DNA from: Thermocrinis sp.
Lineage (GTDB): Bacteria; Aquificota; Aquificia; Aquificales; Aquificaceae
Length of the DNA: 60,613 bases
NCBI GenBank assembly: GCA_020833645.1
Contig: JAJHRQ010000005.1
Coordinates: 1 to 60,613 of the forward strand
Direction of reading: 5' to 3'
Each line of letters starts with the position of its first letter. The first letter of the stretch is position 1. The notes beneath the pieces were generated by a model, which saw only the letters and a list, made by a program, of their open reading frames with translations, made no database searches and was not told the DNA's origin. Below are positions 12,022-48,909 of the stretch, piece after piece. The translations under genes were made by a program, and so were the position numbers.

Positions 12022-12310
12022 CCAGGTCACCCAAAGTGTATAAAACTGCAATTGCTTGCAGTCGTCCCCTGACCTGGAAGGGAGGGACTACCCTTGCCAG
12101 CCACCCCTGCCCAATCCCCTGAAACCAAAACACGCTTCAAGGGAGAGTGGTCCCTACACCACTCAAGGCAAGTAGTGGCAAGCAAAACCGCAAGGGCTAC
12201 GGAAAGAACTCGCCAGCTTTTTTGTCCCGCATGAGTGGGACCCCTCAACTGCTCCATCTTGCGGTTGGCAGTTTGTTGGGTAGCTGGCTCACTCTTCCCG
12301 CTGTCCCGTG
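12022..12310 (-). ncRNA. Predicted omega/re-RNA scaffold of element A
   Basis: The 3' part of the tnpB reading frame and the right end are predicted to fold as a guide-RNA scaffold. Hairpins on the minus strand: H1 GTCCC/GGGAC (12224-12241), H2 AGTGGT/ACCACT (12146-12163), H3 the terminal stem (12022-12077) with an inner CTGCAA/TTGCAG hairpin. The same three positions pair with different bases in the solo copy at 37680-37915, and H1 and H2 again in the copy at 48600-48875. TnpB guide RNAs are known to overlap the 3' end of tnpB and to take their guide from sequence just beyond the right end. Confidence 0.6.
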
Positions 12311-13664
12311 TATAGGAAAGCAATAACTTTAAATACCTCCTTAACCGCTTAATCCTTCCCTTGAGGGCGTTCTTCTTGTATTCGTTGGTCTCTTTCTTTA
12401 ACTCACTCTTGAGTTCATTAATCCGCTCATCTACCTTGGCAATAGCATACGCCAAAAACTCCTTGTCCTTGAGTAGTTCCCTGTAATTCTTAGGAAGCCT
12501 TTCCTCAAACCCAAGACCACGCCTCGCTATCACATAAGCACCAGCTACATCCTTGTCTATGCCTAACATGGGAGAGTATTTAAGCTTGCCAATGATTGAT
12601 GTGTAGGCAGGATTGACCTTTATCAATTGAACTCCCATCCTCTTTGCATAGACTTCAATTTTCTCCAAGACTGATCTATACGCCCATTTATGGAATTTTC
12701 TTCTCAATTTAGCCAAACCGTCTCCTCTTCTGCCTTTAGGGACTTTTTGTAAATCTTCCACAACAATGGCCTTTCCACTCTCTAAAGCCCTCTCTACCAC
12801 TTGCCTTGCTATATGCCATGCTATATGTTCTCGCTGATTTTGGGTTTTGCCCTCCATCTCCCTTAAATCTATGCGTTCAAACTTTTCTAAATTCCCGTCC
12901 GTTGATACGTAAGCTAAAGCTAAATGAAAGGGATAAGCGTTGATGTCTATGCCCATAACTCCGTAAGCTTTAGTTATAACAGGTTCTACAGTCTTTTCTT
13001 CCCAACTGACTTGTGCGTAAAATTTGCCATTTCTTACTTTCAACCTCACGTTATACGCAAACCACTCACCTGATTTCTCCGCTTCCAAAAGCCTCCATGT
13101 AAAGTCAATCCATTTATCATTGCTTTTCTTTGCAATCCTTACAACCTTGGCCCATACATACTCACCGTCTCCCAAGTTAATCCTCAGTTTTAAGCTATCT
13201 TTCCATACAAACCTAAGGTTTAGGTTGCCGTTTTTAGACTTTTCTCCTCTTGAGTAGAGGTAGTAATATCTCCTTTCTTCCCACCTTTGGCGTAGCTTTT
13301 CTCTACGTTTGCCCGTTAGATGCTTCTTCTTTAGCTTTTCAAACAGTTCCCTTGAACCAAACACAAGCTTTTTGGGATTTTGCCCTCTTTGTATGCACGA
13401 CTTTAGCACCTGCTTTGCTATTAAGACAGCGTCCTTTACATACCTTGCGTTTAGCTTATGTTTTTCTTGAATTGTTTTTTCTATTTCTTTTTCCGCCACT
13501 CCCTCTAACAGTCTTTTGTATGCATATCTTGTTGCGGAAGAGAACCTACGCATTAAAGCTAAGACTTTTTCTTTTTCTTCTTCCTTTTCAAACTCCAGCA
13601 TACATTCCAGAGTTATGTAGAGTTTATGGACTTTTTCTTCGCTACAGTTTTTACCACTTCCCAT
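12027..13664 (-). CDS. tnpB: TnpB-like RNA-guided nuclease without zinc finger
   Basis: A 545-codon frame related to the IS200/IS605 accessory TnpB group. RuvC-like acidic residues are present: D near 240 (GIDINAYPF), E near 303 (VVEDLQK), D near 370 (GIDKDVAGAYVIARR). The usual CxxC...CxxC zinc finger between the last two motifs is replaced by NPAYTSIIGKLKYSP. From about residue 455 on, the frame passes through the predicted guide-RNA hairpins; those ~90 residues are low-complexity and may not be needed as protein. About half of the central residues match the copy at 47329-48888. The ATG at 13664 has no clear Shine-Dalgarno. Confidence 0.8.
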   Translation of the reverse strand: MGSGKNCSEEKVHKLYITLECMLEFEKEEEKEKVLALMRRFSSATRYAYKRLLEGVAEKEIEKTIQEKHKLNARYVKDAVLIAKQVLKSCIQRGQNPKKLVFGSRELFEKLKKKHLTGKRREKLRQRWEERRYYYLYSRGEKSKNGNLNLRFVWKDSLKLRINLGDGEYVWAKVVRIAKKSNDKWIDFTWRLLEAEKSGEWFAYNVRLKVRNGKFYAQVSWEEKTVEPVITKAYGVMGIDINAYPFHLALAYVSTDGNLEKFERIDLREMEGKTQNQREHIAWHIARQVVERALESGKAIVVEDLQKVPKGRRGDGLAKLRRKFHKWAYRSVLEKIEVYAKRMGVQLIKVNPAYTSIIGKLKYSPMLGIDKDVAGAYVIARRGLGFEERLPKNYRELLKDKEFLAYAIAKVDERINELKSELKKETNEYKKNALKGRIKRLRRYLKLLLSYTRDSGKSEPATQQTANRKMEQLRGPTHAGQKSWRVLSVALAVLLATTCLEWCRDHSPLKRVLVSGDWAGVAGKGSPSLPGQGTTASNCSFIHFG

Positions 13665-35361: not shown

Positions 35362-36295
35362 GAGGCTGTTCTAAAAATAATGCTTTAGGGGTGGGATAGA
35401 GATAATTTAGATTTTGTGCGAAAAAGTAAGTTGCCACTAAAAAAGCTTCACACTTTTGTAAGCTACTTCCTCAAAAATACGAAGACGCTTTGATCATCAC
35501 CCTGTGGCTCTTTCAAATACTTAACAACTATTCACACAGAGAAACCCTTGAAAAAGCAAAAAATGAAGGCTTTAACGTGCCATCCCTTTGCGACTATCAC
35601 TACAGAGTTAAACAGTTGGATGATGAACTTCTAAAAAGCATCTTAGAAGAATGTGCTAAGCTTCTCCTTGAAGATAAACAAATTTTGTGCTACATAGCAG
35701 ATGCTACTGGCTTTGGCTTCGGAGATAAATACAACCTTAATCGGAAAAGAGGCACGCAAATAAGAACTGTTCAATCTCACGTTAGACTTGAGGTGATAAT
35801 GGCGGTAGATGAGAATAATCGGAAGATAATAACTGCAGTGGAAACTGGAGGACCTTACGAGAGTGAGATTGAGATGTTGAGGAAGGCATTAAAGAAATTA
35901 GAACCTCAAAAAGGACTATCTTTTATAGCGGATAAAGGCTACGATGCTGTGGATATTATAGAAAGCCTTTTAGATAGAGGATTTGAGCCAGCCATAAGGA
36001 TCAAGGAGGCTATGAGGATGAGTATAAGACATCCTTTGAGAAAGCTATCTAATGAGAATTGGGGGAGATACGGGAAGATGAGGTATAGGGTAGAACAGTT
36101 GTTTGGTAGCATGAAGCAGAAGATTGGTTCAAGCTTTAAATTGCTGAGGGAGGACTTAGCAAGAAAAGCATCCGTTGCTTGTGCTATTCTTTGGAACTTC
36201 TGGGTGCTTGCAACTTACTTATTTTTGTTATTTCTGTCTGGTATCTTGCACTATAGCTATGCTTAAGGGCTATGGTAGATTTTTAAAACAGCCTC
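35362..36295 (+). mobile_element. DDE insertion sequence with 17-bp ends and 10-bp target duplication
   Basis: A 934-bp element. Left end GAGGCTGTTCTAAAAAT (35362-35378); the right end (36279-36295) is its inverse with one mismatch. Perfect 10-bp duplications GCGAAACAGT flank it (35352-35361 and 36296-36305). Target duplications of 10-12 bp are known for the IS4/IS231 group. The same ends flank tnpB element C at 47265-48897. Confidence 0.9.
35416..36266 (+). CDS. DDE transposase of the IS4-like element (frame shift near N-terminus)
   Basis: The main frame (35490-36266) encodes 258 residues with D in IADATGFGF, D in FIADKGYDAV and E in RYRVEQLFGSMKQK, spaced as in DDE_Tnp_1 proteins. The E region also carries the R(3)E(6)K spacing of the IS4 YREK signature. 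A preceding segment in another frame (35416-35485) encodes VRKSKLPLKKLHTFVSYFLK, which fits directly onto KYEDALIITLWLF of the main frame after a -1 shift in the AAAAA at about 35473-35477. So the intact protein needs a frameshift, or this copy lost one A. Confidence 0.75.
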
Positions 36296-36359: not shown

Positions 36360-37184
36360 GAGAAATTATTTAAACAGCCAAGACTTCCTGAAGAAACTAT
36401 ACCCAACAGTATAACCCTGAAGGTAAGCAAGTAAAGTCGTAGTATTCCTCCATCTGCTAACTCCATTGAAAAGCTTTATATGAGAATTCACAGCCTCTAT
36501 CACTTGCCTAACACTCTTGTCTGGCTTATCCTCACATACACGCACGTATTCCAAACCTTTATACCCTCTATCACCCATAAGACAAAAGCTGTCTACAAGC
36601 GCCCTAAACCACAAACTCTTTTGATACCTTATCCTTACAGACCTCACTTCGTGATAGCTGGCAGGATGAACCCACATATCATAAACAATTCCATTCACAT
36701 CGCAAACAATCATTACCAAAAGCCCATAATGAACCTCTTCAAATCTTACATTCCTTTGGTAATCCCAACTGTAAATGTTTTTTTCCTCTTTGTCCAGAAT
36801 TTCTTTCCCGCAACCCTCTTTATCTTCCTTGTTTGTGCCCTGTATATGTTTGCAACTCTTAGAATAGTGCCATCAACTATCAGTTTTATTTCCTTTCCAA
36901 GTAGGATGCTTAAAATCAAGATTATCAAGTTCATTTTCCTTCCGTATAGTTCTAAAAGTTTATAAACCCTTGCGGTTCTATATTTTCTAAACAAGTGATA
37001 AGACTGAATGGAAAGGTCTATAAGGATTTTAGCAAGATTAAACACTGGTGTGTTTGTTATATAGGACATGACATACAGGCAAGCTATTTGTAAGTCTGAG
37101 ACTTTTGGCGGTCTTCCCACTTTTACTTGCCTTTCACAGTATGATAAGACTATAGAGATGGACAAAAGGACTTGTTGGTATGAA
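36360..37184 (-). mobile_element. Second insertion sequence, ends not defined
   Basis: Region occupied by a frame-shifted DDE transposase on the minus strand. On its left it begins about 65 bp after the target duplication of the IS4-like element; on its right it is cut by, or abuts, the inverted repeat of the IS6-like element at 37185. I could not find convincing terminal repeats, so the limits are those of the reading frames. Confidence 0.5.
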
Positions 37185-37192
37185 GATGTCAA
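36366..37192 (-). pseudogene. IS5/IS982-like DDE transposase in two frames
   Basis: Two minus-strand frames make one transposase. The first (37192-36746) ends after LIVDGTILRVANIYRAQTRKIKR..FWTKRKK; the second carries LLVMIVCDVNG, WVHPASYHEVRS, LMGDRGYKG and a late E in VIEAVNSHIK. They join at a 7-A run (AGGAAAAAAAC, about 36776-36786): a -1 shift there reads KRKKNIYSWDYQRNV straight into the second frame. Runs of this type are classic frameshift sites in insertion sequences, so it may be programmed rather than dead. Confidence 0.65.
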
Positions 37193-46153: not shown

Positions 46154-47328
46154 AAAAGGATTAGCTTTTAGAACTTCCAGTTTAGACCGACAGAGATGGC
46201 ATTTTGGGCATTTTGGGCTTCTAAGGTATTCGTGTTATCCGCGGCAGACACCTTTTTGTTAAAGGCGTGTTCGTACGCAAGGTCTATGCTAAAGTTCTTG
46301 GTGAATTCATAACCAAGACCAAGGGTTATGTGATGCTCTGTGATGGCTGGGAAGCCTATTAGGTTAAACATAGCGATTTGGAAATCGCTAAACTGTGCGG
46401 CAAAATTTGGAATTGTTTTGTTGGGAGTTATATCTTTGACCCCACCCCTTATAGGAGACTTTCCGTAGTTGTATCCTGCCCTGAGGGCAAGCTTTTGCGT
46501 TGGTTTGAACTCACCACCCAAAGCTATGACCCACTGGTCCTTCCATTGGAACTCTTTGTATCCCTTTGCGTTCTTCCAGTTTATCCACCTGATGTCCATA
46601 CCCACCTTGAGGTTATCCATAGGCTTTACACCAACACCAAAGGCAAGCTCTTGAGGCTGAGTAAGCTTGAAGTCTTCAAATTGTCCATCAAAGCTGGTAT
46701 CAAACACCCTCTTATAAGTCATATTCACTGGGCTTTGGTAGGCTAAACCTGCATACACAAAATCTCCCATGTTGTAGGCAACACCAAGCTGGGCACCAAT
46801 GCCGTAGGTTTGAGACTGCCCGCCACCCAGATTTGCACCTCCAATTGTAGCCCCCATATCTAAGGAGCCATAAGCCAAATGGATTGCACCGGATATAGAA
46901 ATGGCATCGTTTACCTTATAGGCAAGGGCGGGTATCACTCTCATGAACTGGAAGGTGGTATGCATGTTTAGAAGGTCGTCACCTTTATTTCTGTAGTCCA
47001 CACCCATACCGGATACACCAAAAGCCCCTATACCGAAGGTAAGTTTGTCGTTAATTTGATGCACTATTCCCACTTATGGAACCACGAACACCTTTGATTG
47101 ACTGGTGGCAGAGGCTTCGGTGCTTGTGATGATATTACTCTTTGCCTTTACTTCTGGGAAAAGCAGAATTCCTCCAAAGCTCAGGTTAAAGCCCTTGTAG
47201 TAGCTCATCCATGCGGGGTTTCTGAAGATGGTGTCAGTGGGTCCTACGGGCATACCCACGCCTAGAGGTTGTTCTAAAAATACAAACCCATTGACACACA
47301 AGAGTTTTAAGGCTAAAATCTAACTCTG

Positions 47329-48888
47329 ATGTTTGTTAGCTTACAGTTCAAGCTTGAACTGAGAAAAGAAGCCAAAGAAAAACTCATAAAGCTTATGCGT
47401 GAGCAATCCTCTGCCATTCGTGTGGCACACAATATGCTAAAGGAGTTGGAAAAAGAGAAAGCAAAAAACCCACACGCTCAAATATACCATAGACTAAGAC
47501 AGCTATTTCCTAACCTACCGACCAAATACATTGACTCAGCTATTTACAAAGCTAAACAATATCCCACAAACAAAACAGTTGTGTTTGGAGGCAAAAGACT
47601 TTTTGAAAAGCTTTGCAAAAATCGCCTTACGGGAAAAGCAAGGGAAAAGCTTAAAAAACAATGGAGAGAATTAAGACAAGGAACACTTATAAGCATCGGG
47701 TCAAAGGCAGACAAAGGAAACAGACTAATGAGATTTGAAGACCTAAACGGACAGCTACACCTTAGAATTACCACAGGAAACAGAGAATTTATCTACGCCA
47801 AAGTGTTAAGAGAACCAAGCAATAGCAAAGACAAGTGGATAACCTTTATGGCTATGCTTTTAGAAAGTTGGCAAACAAAAAGCTACTTTCCTTACACAGT
47901 GGAGCTAAAGCTAAGAGATGGAGAAGTTTATGGAAGTGTATCCTTTGAACTTCCAACACCTGAAGTGAAATACACCAAAGAAAACGGAGTAATAGCCATA
48001 GACACGAACGCATCACCTATCCACTTAGCTATAGCGGAAGTTTCAAAAACTGGAGAACTACTAAGCTATAAGACCATTAGCCTACACCACCTTTTAGGAC
48101 TTTCTCAAAACAGCAAAGATCACCAAGAGTGGATATTAGCACATCAGATAGTGAATTTAGCTATTGAAAAAGGAAAAGCCGTAGCTATAGAGAACTTAAA
48201 GAAACTCAAAAAAGGAATGCGTGGAGATGGGAAAGCTGAGTTAAGAAAAAGACTTCATCACTGGAATGCCAAAAAGTTTATGCAAAAGCTAAAGAGGGTA
48301 GCAAGATTAAAGGGAGTGGAAGTAGTAGAAGTCAATCCTGCTTACACCTCAGCTATAGGCATGCTAAAGTATGCACCACAGTTAAACACAGACAAAGACA
48401 TAGCAGGGGCGTATGTGATAGGGAGAAGGGCACTGGGCTTTAAAGAGGACGTGCCTGAAAATTACGAAAGACTACTAAAGGACAAGGCATATTTGGAGTT
48501 TGCACTGAAAAGGTATGAAGAGAGAGAAAAGGAACTTGCGGAACTTTTAGAGAAGGAGACAAACCAATATAAAAGGAATGCCTTAGAAAGCGAACTAAAG
48601 AATGTCCAGAATGCAAAGGAGCTATTAGCTAATCAAAGCCTTCAGAGTGAGTCAAGCTCCTGTGAGGGAGCCAACGGAAGGAATCCCGAGCAGGGGAGAG
48701 GCAACCTTGCCTCTTCTTCCGCTTGGCAAGTTCTGAAGGTAGCCCTCCTCTTCTCTATCCTTGGAAAGGTCTTGCCGAGGGACCTTTCTCCTCTGAAGCC
48801 AGTGTTGGTGGAAGGGGTGTGGGATAGGGTGAGGAGTAGGTTAGTTCCCTTTGAGGCTGGGGGGACGGTCCCAATAAGGGATTTTTAG
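47329..48888 (+). CDS. tnpB: TnpB-like RNA-guided nuclease without zinc finger (copy C)
   Basis: A 519-codon frame. RuvC acidic residues: D near 225 (AIDTNASPIHLAI), E near 288 (AIENLKK), D near 355 (NTDKDIAGAYVIGRR). NPAYTSAIGMLKYAP stands where the zinc finger would be. Two long helices follow, then from about residue 425 the frame crosses the predicted guide-RNA hairpins and ends within the terminal repeat. All catalytic positions and the frame are intact, so it may be active. It is related to but clearly diverged from copy A. Confidence 0.82.
   Translation: MFVSLQFKLELRKEAKEKLIKLMREQSSAIRVAHNMLKELEKEKAKNPHAQIYHRLRQLFPNLPTKYIDSAIYKAKQYPTNKTVVFGGKRLFEKLCKNRLTGKAREKLKKQWRELRQGTLISIGSKADKGNRLMRFEDLNGQLHLRITTGNREFIYAKVLREPSNSKDKWITFMAMLLESWQTKSYFPYTVELKLRDGEVYGSVSFELPTPEVKYTKENGVIAIDTNASPIHLAIAEVSKTGELLSYKTISLHHLLGLSQNSKDHQEWILAHQIVNLAIEKGKAVAIENLKKLKKGMRGDGKAELRKRLHHWNAKKFMQKLKRVARLKGVEVVEVNPAYTSAIGMLKYAPQLNTDKDIAGAYVIGRRALGFKEDVPENYERLLKDKAYLEFALKRYEEREKELAELLEKETNQYKRNALESELKNVQNAKELLANQSLQSESSSCEGANGRNPEQGRGNLASSSAWQVLKVALLFSILGKVLPRDLSPLKPVLVEGVWDRVRSRLVPFEAGGTVPIRDF
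48600..48875 (+). ncRNA. Predicted omega/re-RNA scaffold of element C
   Basis: H1 GAGGC/GCCTC (48698-48713), the shared linker TGGCAAGTTCT...GTAGCCCT (about 48724-48747), H2 AAAGGTC/GACCTTT (48765-48787), and a final GGGA/TCCC hairpin ending at TCCCAAT (48875). The rlmN scar ends at the same heptamer, which suggests this is the true right boundary and that guide sequence would begin at 48876. Confidence 0.55.
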
Positions 48889-48909
48889 AACAGCATCTAC
48901 CCACGCCTA

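Follow-up and report, generated by a model that had tools for sequence, protein, structure and literature searches.

A tnpB gene as the sole cargo of elements with DDE-transposon ends in Thermocrinis and related Aquificales

The window, a 60,613-nucleotide stretch from the 1.26-Mb draft genome (51 contigs) of Thermocrinis sp., contains a transposable element, hereafter element C, at positions 47265-48897. Its sole gene is tnpB, an open reading frame (ORF) of 519 aa at 47329-48888 (+ strand). TnpB is an RNA-guided DNA cutter and the ancestor of Cas12. Element C is bounded by 17-bp terminal inverted repeats (TIRs). The left TIR (47265-47281, + strand) reads GAGGTTGTTCTAAAAAT, and the right TIR, the reverse complement of 48881-48897 (- strand), reads GATGCTGTTCTAAAAAT. 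Outside the TIRs is a perfect 12-bp target-site duplication (TSD), TACCCACGCCTA, positioned at 47253-47264 and 48898-48909 (+ strand). The left copy is abutted on its outer side by GGCA (47249-47252, + strand), which resembles a target-adjacent motif (TAM), and the right copy is predicted to supply the first 12 nt of a guide.

A second element of the window, at 35362-36295 (+ strand), carries a DDE transposase. Its left end (35362-35378) is GAGGCTGTTCTAAAAAT, the reverse complement of its right end (36279-36295) is GAGGCTGTTTTAAAAAT, and it is flanked by its own 10-bp TSD, GCGAAACAGT. Compared with GAGGCTGTTCTAAAAAT, the two ends of element C have one mismatch each. A preliminary description of this DNA had reported element C, the match of its ends to those of the DDE element, and the perfect duplication; the coordinates are correct, the two copies of the duplication are identical, and the ends agree but for a single mismatch. 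Element C has a TSD and shares its TIRs with a DDE element elsewhere in its genome, the organization of a non-autonomous DDE transposon. The transposase ORF (35490-36266, + strand; 258 aa from TTG) is probably incomplete at its N terminus and may be damaged there. It matches Pfam DDE_Tnp_1 (PF01609), and its top NCBIfam models, IS5_2 (58 of 140 bits) and then IS4_1 (42 of 115 bits), are both under the cut-off, so it falls in no named IS4 or IS5 family. The earlier wording, an IS4-like transposase acting in trans, is therefore loose as to the family, and the role in trans is suggested by the shared ends and the TSD size. In the window genome and in genomes G001, G006, and G012, the DDE and tnpB elements are alike in ends, TSD size, and target motif. 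A broken IS982-like transposase, in two ORF pieces, adjoins the DDE element at 36366-37192 (- strand); a relative of it is present in G029 as more than 20 near-identical copies with their own ends and long duplications.

Element C interrupts a gene for FadL. In the FadL orthologues of six relatives (G001, G002, G003, G004, G006, and G012), the target sequence is single and uninterrupted, indicating that element C is a clean insertion. No miniature inverted-repeat transposable element (MITE) is present at this site in any of the six, which removes one observation that would have counted against joint movement of tnpB and the ends. When the flanks of element C are joined, FadL reads through the junction in frame. 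The expectation that excision restores the gene holds at the junction only, in that a separate nonsense codon, TAA at about 47074-47076, beyond the insertion, still interrupts it, indicating that the broken gene decayed further.

The ends of element C recur throughout the genome. With up to two mismatches, the end motif has 70 occurrences (38 exact) in 1.26 Mb, versus 5 for the reversed control, which is far above chance, and it is located at the edges of tnpB copies. The window genome contains eight full-length tnpB copies (86-100% identity), plus numerous tnpB fragments where contigs end. Across the window genome and its relatives, about 18 tnpB elements or deletion derivatives of about 300 bp lie at distinct sites with 9-12-bp TSDs, as had been predicted for repeated co-mobilization. 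In the window genome, perfect TSDs flank tnpB copies at C9:7680 (10 bp), C12:34379 (10 bp), C26:30217 (11 bp), and C50 (12 bp), as well as MITEs of about 307 bp at C27:39643 (11 bp) and C27:85062 (12 bp). In other genomes, TSDs flank loci L119 (12 bp, perfect), L122 (10 bp), L124 (10 bp), and L123 (9 bp), and TSDs with one mismatch flank L155, L148, and L161. The tnpB units measure 1.60-1.65 kb, and the tnpB match begins 48-73 bp from the left end (113 bp in one truncated ORF). The MITEs retain both tnpB-specific ends and look like internal-deletion derivatives of the tnpB unit. At a few loci the surroundings are more complex. A tnpB copy at G000:C28:11582-13223 (L004) has GGTGTCCCATTTTTTT on both flanks, perhaps because its insertion site lay within a different repeat or between two copies of one. 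At L160 (G001:C2:242051-244320) and L161 (G001:C2:342901-345164), tnpB and DDE elements are adjacent, about 10 bp apart in L161, and the duplication at L160 is inverted (GATCCTTAT and ATAAGGATC), which hints at rearrangement between neighboring elements.

The TnpB of element C has several features of an RNA-guided nuclease. Its RuvC residues D225, E288, and D357 are invariant among 21 relatives. Its score is over the cut-off for TIGR01766 (61.3 bits) and under the cut-offs for NF040570 (guided_TnpB) and the Pfam TNB domain. The AlphaFold model is confident for the greater part of the core, up to about residue 436, with confidence below 50 for residues 437-519. Foldseek matches include Cas12k, Cas12f, and TnpB (E-values 6e-8 to 2e-5) and also Fanzor2, so the predicted fold is TnpB/Cas12f-like. 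Over codons 1-425 the ratio of nonsynonymous to synonymous substitution rates (dN/dS) is about 0.1, with a synonymous rate (dS) of about 0.4-0.6 in the closest group. The TnpB core, approximately residues 1-436, is under strong purifying selection.

The C-terminal part of tnpB overlaps a candidate ω-RNA, the predicted guide RNA scaffold, which occupies the last approximately 245 nt of the element and ends at the right TIR (48653-48897, + strand). In an alignment of 30 copies, the consensus fold of these 245 nt contains 67 pairs, 13 of them with changes on both sides, and 97.5% of cells are paired. None of the 500 shuffles or of the slid controls reaches the observed covariation score or pairing. 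Close to its 5' end, the RNA has a GAGG that pairs, in the consensus fold, with CCTC at the tip of the right TIR. Over tnpB codons 440-512, dS drops to about 0.2-0.4 and dN/dS rises, as expected if the region is kept as RNA, and copies differ by one-base indels in the C-terminal coding part, which favors an RNA rather than a protein constraint. The RNA region is also retained in the MITEs of about 300 bp. The 245-nt RNA matches no known ω-RNA family in Rfam.

According to the rule in the literature, TnpBs of bacteria are carried only by IS605 or IS607 elements. Element C and its relatives depart from this rule, having 17-bp TIRs and 9-12-bp TSDs, tnpB as the only gene, with no Y1 or serine transposase, and ends unlike those of IS607-like relatives. 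The other Aquificales TnpBs with ends examined (42-48% identical), including one in the window at 12084-13619 (- strand), have IS607-like ends without TIR or TSD; their left end is GGAGGT..AACAGTTG and the right end is GGTTAACCAGG. Some of these elements have an upstream tnpA, recognized from sequence as serine-recombinase-like. The TnpBs of the window clade (G000, G001, G002, G006, G012, G015, and G022) group with support of 100/100. A separate set of tnpB elements in G029 and G084 has TIRs GAGGSTGTTTCAAAAAT and TSDs of 9-10 bp (L170, L171, and L172), and its TnpBs group (100/100) with IS607-like relatives of G025 and G037 rather than with the window clade. The co-mobilization foreseen in the preliminary description is thus seen in a second tnpB lineage. 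With the root of the tree unproven, two independent captures of tnpB from an IS607 state are the parsimonious reading, which implies that in Aquificales hot-spring bacteria tnpB became the sole cargo of a TIR/TSD (DDE-type) element at least twice. We found no report of a bacterial TnpB inside a DDE element in the open-access literature. One contig carrying both tnpB and a DDE gene (G024:C182) was considered as a composite element and rejected because its tnpB has IS607-like ends.

Two further observations concern these lineages. G084 contains about 88 GAGGSTGTTTCAAAAAT-type ends (e.g., L276-L288), a large MITE expansion in which many copies carry the RNA end of the tnpB element. The IS607-like TnpB elements (the window element at 12084-13619, L128, L136, L131, and L330) often lie directly 3' of AGGAGG(T), which resembles a Shine-Dalgarno sequence, and in some cases a start codon follows closely after the right end; this suggests that ribosome-binding sites are preferred targets of such elements across the order.

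The GGCA beside element C belongs to a one-sided motif. In the window clade, GNCA is positioned 9-12 bp outside the left end of tnpB elements, at the outer edge of the TSD, in 23 of 31 cases and at none of 49 right ends (p=1e-13); in the G029/G084 clade the counts are 16/29 and 1/38 (p=8e-7), where the p-values for the motif, here and below, treat sites as independent. Given this position, a guide transcribed out across the right end would pair with the unoccupied site, where GNCA would act as the TAM. G002 and G004 both contain an intact copy of the target predicted for element C, GGCA-TACCCACGCCTATACCACCC. In the right flank of tnpB elements, only the first base is clearly conserved (A, 32/49). 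Therefore, the TSD is free to serve as guide rather than as scaffold.

We favor a reading, with a probability of about 0.72, in which element C and its relatives are non-autonomous DDE transposons with tnpB as the only gene, mobilized by a DDE transposase in trans and using the right TSD as a guide for homing to unoccupied alleles. A transposase of the P0002 type with matching ends, which tends to insert beside TGTCAA, would move the tnpB unit to new sites. Transcription through the right end would yield the ω-RNA, with the right TSD and the following flank as guide. TnpB and its guide would then cut the unoccupied allele (GNCA, TSD, right flank), and repair of the break by copying the element in would result in homing, or gene drive, at a given site. 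The occupied site would be spared, as its left side has the motif with just 9-12 matching bases and its right side lacks the motif.

Several observations weigh against this reading. DDE-only elements also have TGTCAA on one side, which may be the left (5/19) or the right (12/22). G009, a genome in which no P0001-like TnpB was found, has three identical DDE copies with TTGACA, TTGACT, or TTTACA by a 7-bp duplication. GNCA therefore need not be a TAM, and the notion that it is purely one is weakened; probably the transposase supplies the motif, making GNCA at least partly a transposase preference. In addition, the usual C4 zinc finger between RuvC-II and RuvC-III is absent, with no conserved cysteines in P0001 or the clade consensus. 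The motif beside DDE-only elements makes room for an alternative, which we consider rather unlikely, in which GNCA is a mere target preference of the DDE transposase and TnpB a passenger, either inert or with some other use, whose guide is not directed at the empty site. However, the motif side in tnpB elements is 23:0 (left:right) versus 5:12 in DDE-only elements (p=1e-6). Since DDE-only copies have the motif at either end, the orientation of tnpB elements is constrained beyond the transposase, and orientation is what TnpB would add to a motif supplied by the transposase. The tnpB motif is also broader, with T as second base in 10/23 tnpB sites versus 16/17 DDE sites (p=9e-4, partly confounded by species), and both the TnpB core and the RNA are under selection. 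One-way orientation and a broader motif are compatible as well with a GNCA-bound TnpB ribonucleoprotein that places the DDE transposase 9-12 bp away in a fixed orientation. Such natural nuclease-assisted DDE transposition, which we regard as improbable, would, if true, mean that TnpB helps to pick the target of the transposase.

Also counting against the homing reading, a P0002-like transposase was not found in the complete genomes G002, G029, G015, and G022, all of which have tnpB elements. A transposase of another type may mobilize these elements in some or all hosts, a possibility that we hold as tentative; the ends in G029 differ (GAGGSTGTTTCAAAAAT), and a cognate DDE was not identified there. 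Against it stand the shared properties of the DDE and tnpB elements in the window genome, G001, G006, and G012, and the same pattern would arise if the elements had spread first and the transposase had then been lost. Homing by TnpB could help to explain persistence in the four complete genomes, although simple transposase loss would also account for it. An IS982-like DDE in G029 (C1:1260427), located between matching ends, was rejected as a second mobilizer: the remaining copies that were inspected carry long duplications and ends of their own (ATACGCCGAGTGAGAAATT), indicating an unrelated insertion into a MITE. For several full-length tnpB copies, mostly in the draft genome, the flanks do not contain a matching TSD, which may reflect recombination or chimeric assembly. 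Together with the many contigs that end inside copies, this would fit an assembly artefact, but the pattern with TSDs recurs in the same four genomes, each a single contig, making an artefact exceedingly improbable. That tnpB jumped later into a MITE with DDE ends is very unlikely too. MITEs with the same ends exist, but they resemble internal deletions, and none is found at the FadL site; intact tnpB units keep a near-constant distance from end to ORF at different sites, each with its own TSD, and no separate insertion of tnpB into a MITE was found.

The arrangement has partial counterparts in known systems. IS607-family elements, with a serine recombinase TnpA and TnpB, occur in the same order and share with element C a TnpB that is 42-48% identical, the RuvC nuclease, and an RNA-like 3' end, but they are found at Shine-Dalgarno-like GGAGGT sites without TIR or TSD, whereas the window clade has TIRs, TSDs, and another end sequence. 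The DDE element shares its transposase domain, TIR, and TSD with the IS5/IS4 superfamily (PF01609), and differs in falling under the NCBIfam cut-offs for named groups and in having non-autonomous relatives that carry an RNA-guided nuclease. Fanzor1 (and Fanzor2*) occur in DDE transposons of eukaryotes and viruses, among them IS4-type elements of Ectocarpus virus, where likewise a TnpB-family nuclease is cargo between DDE TIRs, TSDs reach 12 bp, and the elements are often non-autonomous (PMC3627910, PMC10711439). The Fanzor1 TSD is reported to be part of the RNA scaffold, whereas element C has a bacterial TnpB and a TSD that, with no base but the first A conserved among tnpB elements, would serve as guide. 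In IS200/IS605 elements, for which TnpA-TnpB retention or gene drive is proposed, the proposed logic is the same, the guide recording the insertion site, and the left-end motif is common to transposase and nuclease (PMC8612924, PMC11870625). Unlike element C, they have a Y1 transposase, no TSD, and scarless excision, and in element C the motif lies beyond the 9-12-bp duplication.

After the switch to a DDE-type element, the motif at the insertion site still fits a guide directed at the unoccupied allele. The Aquificales elements offer a tractable bacterial system in which to study the adaptation of an RNA-guided nuclease to a different transposase, and the reasons for the rarity of such a switch.
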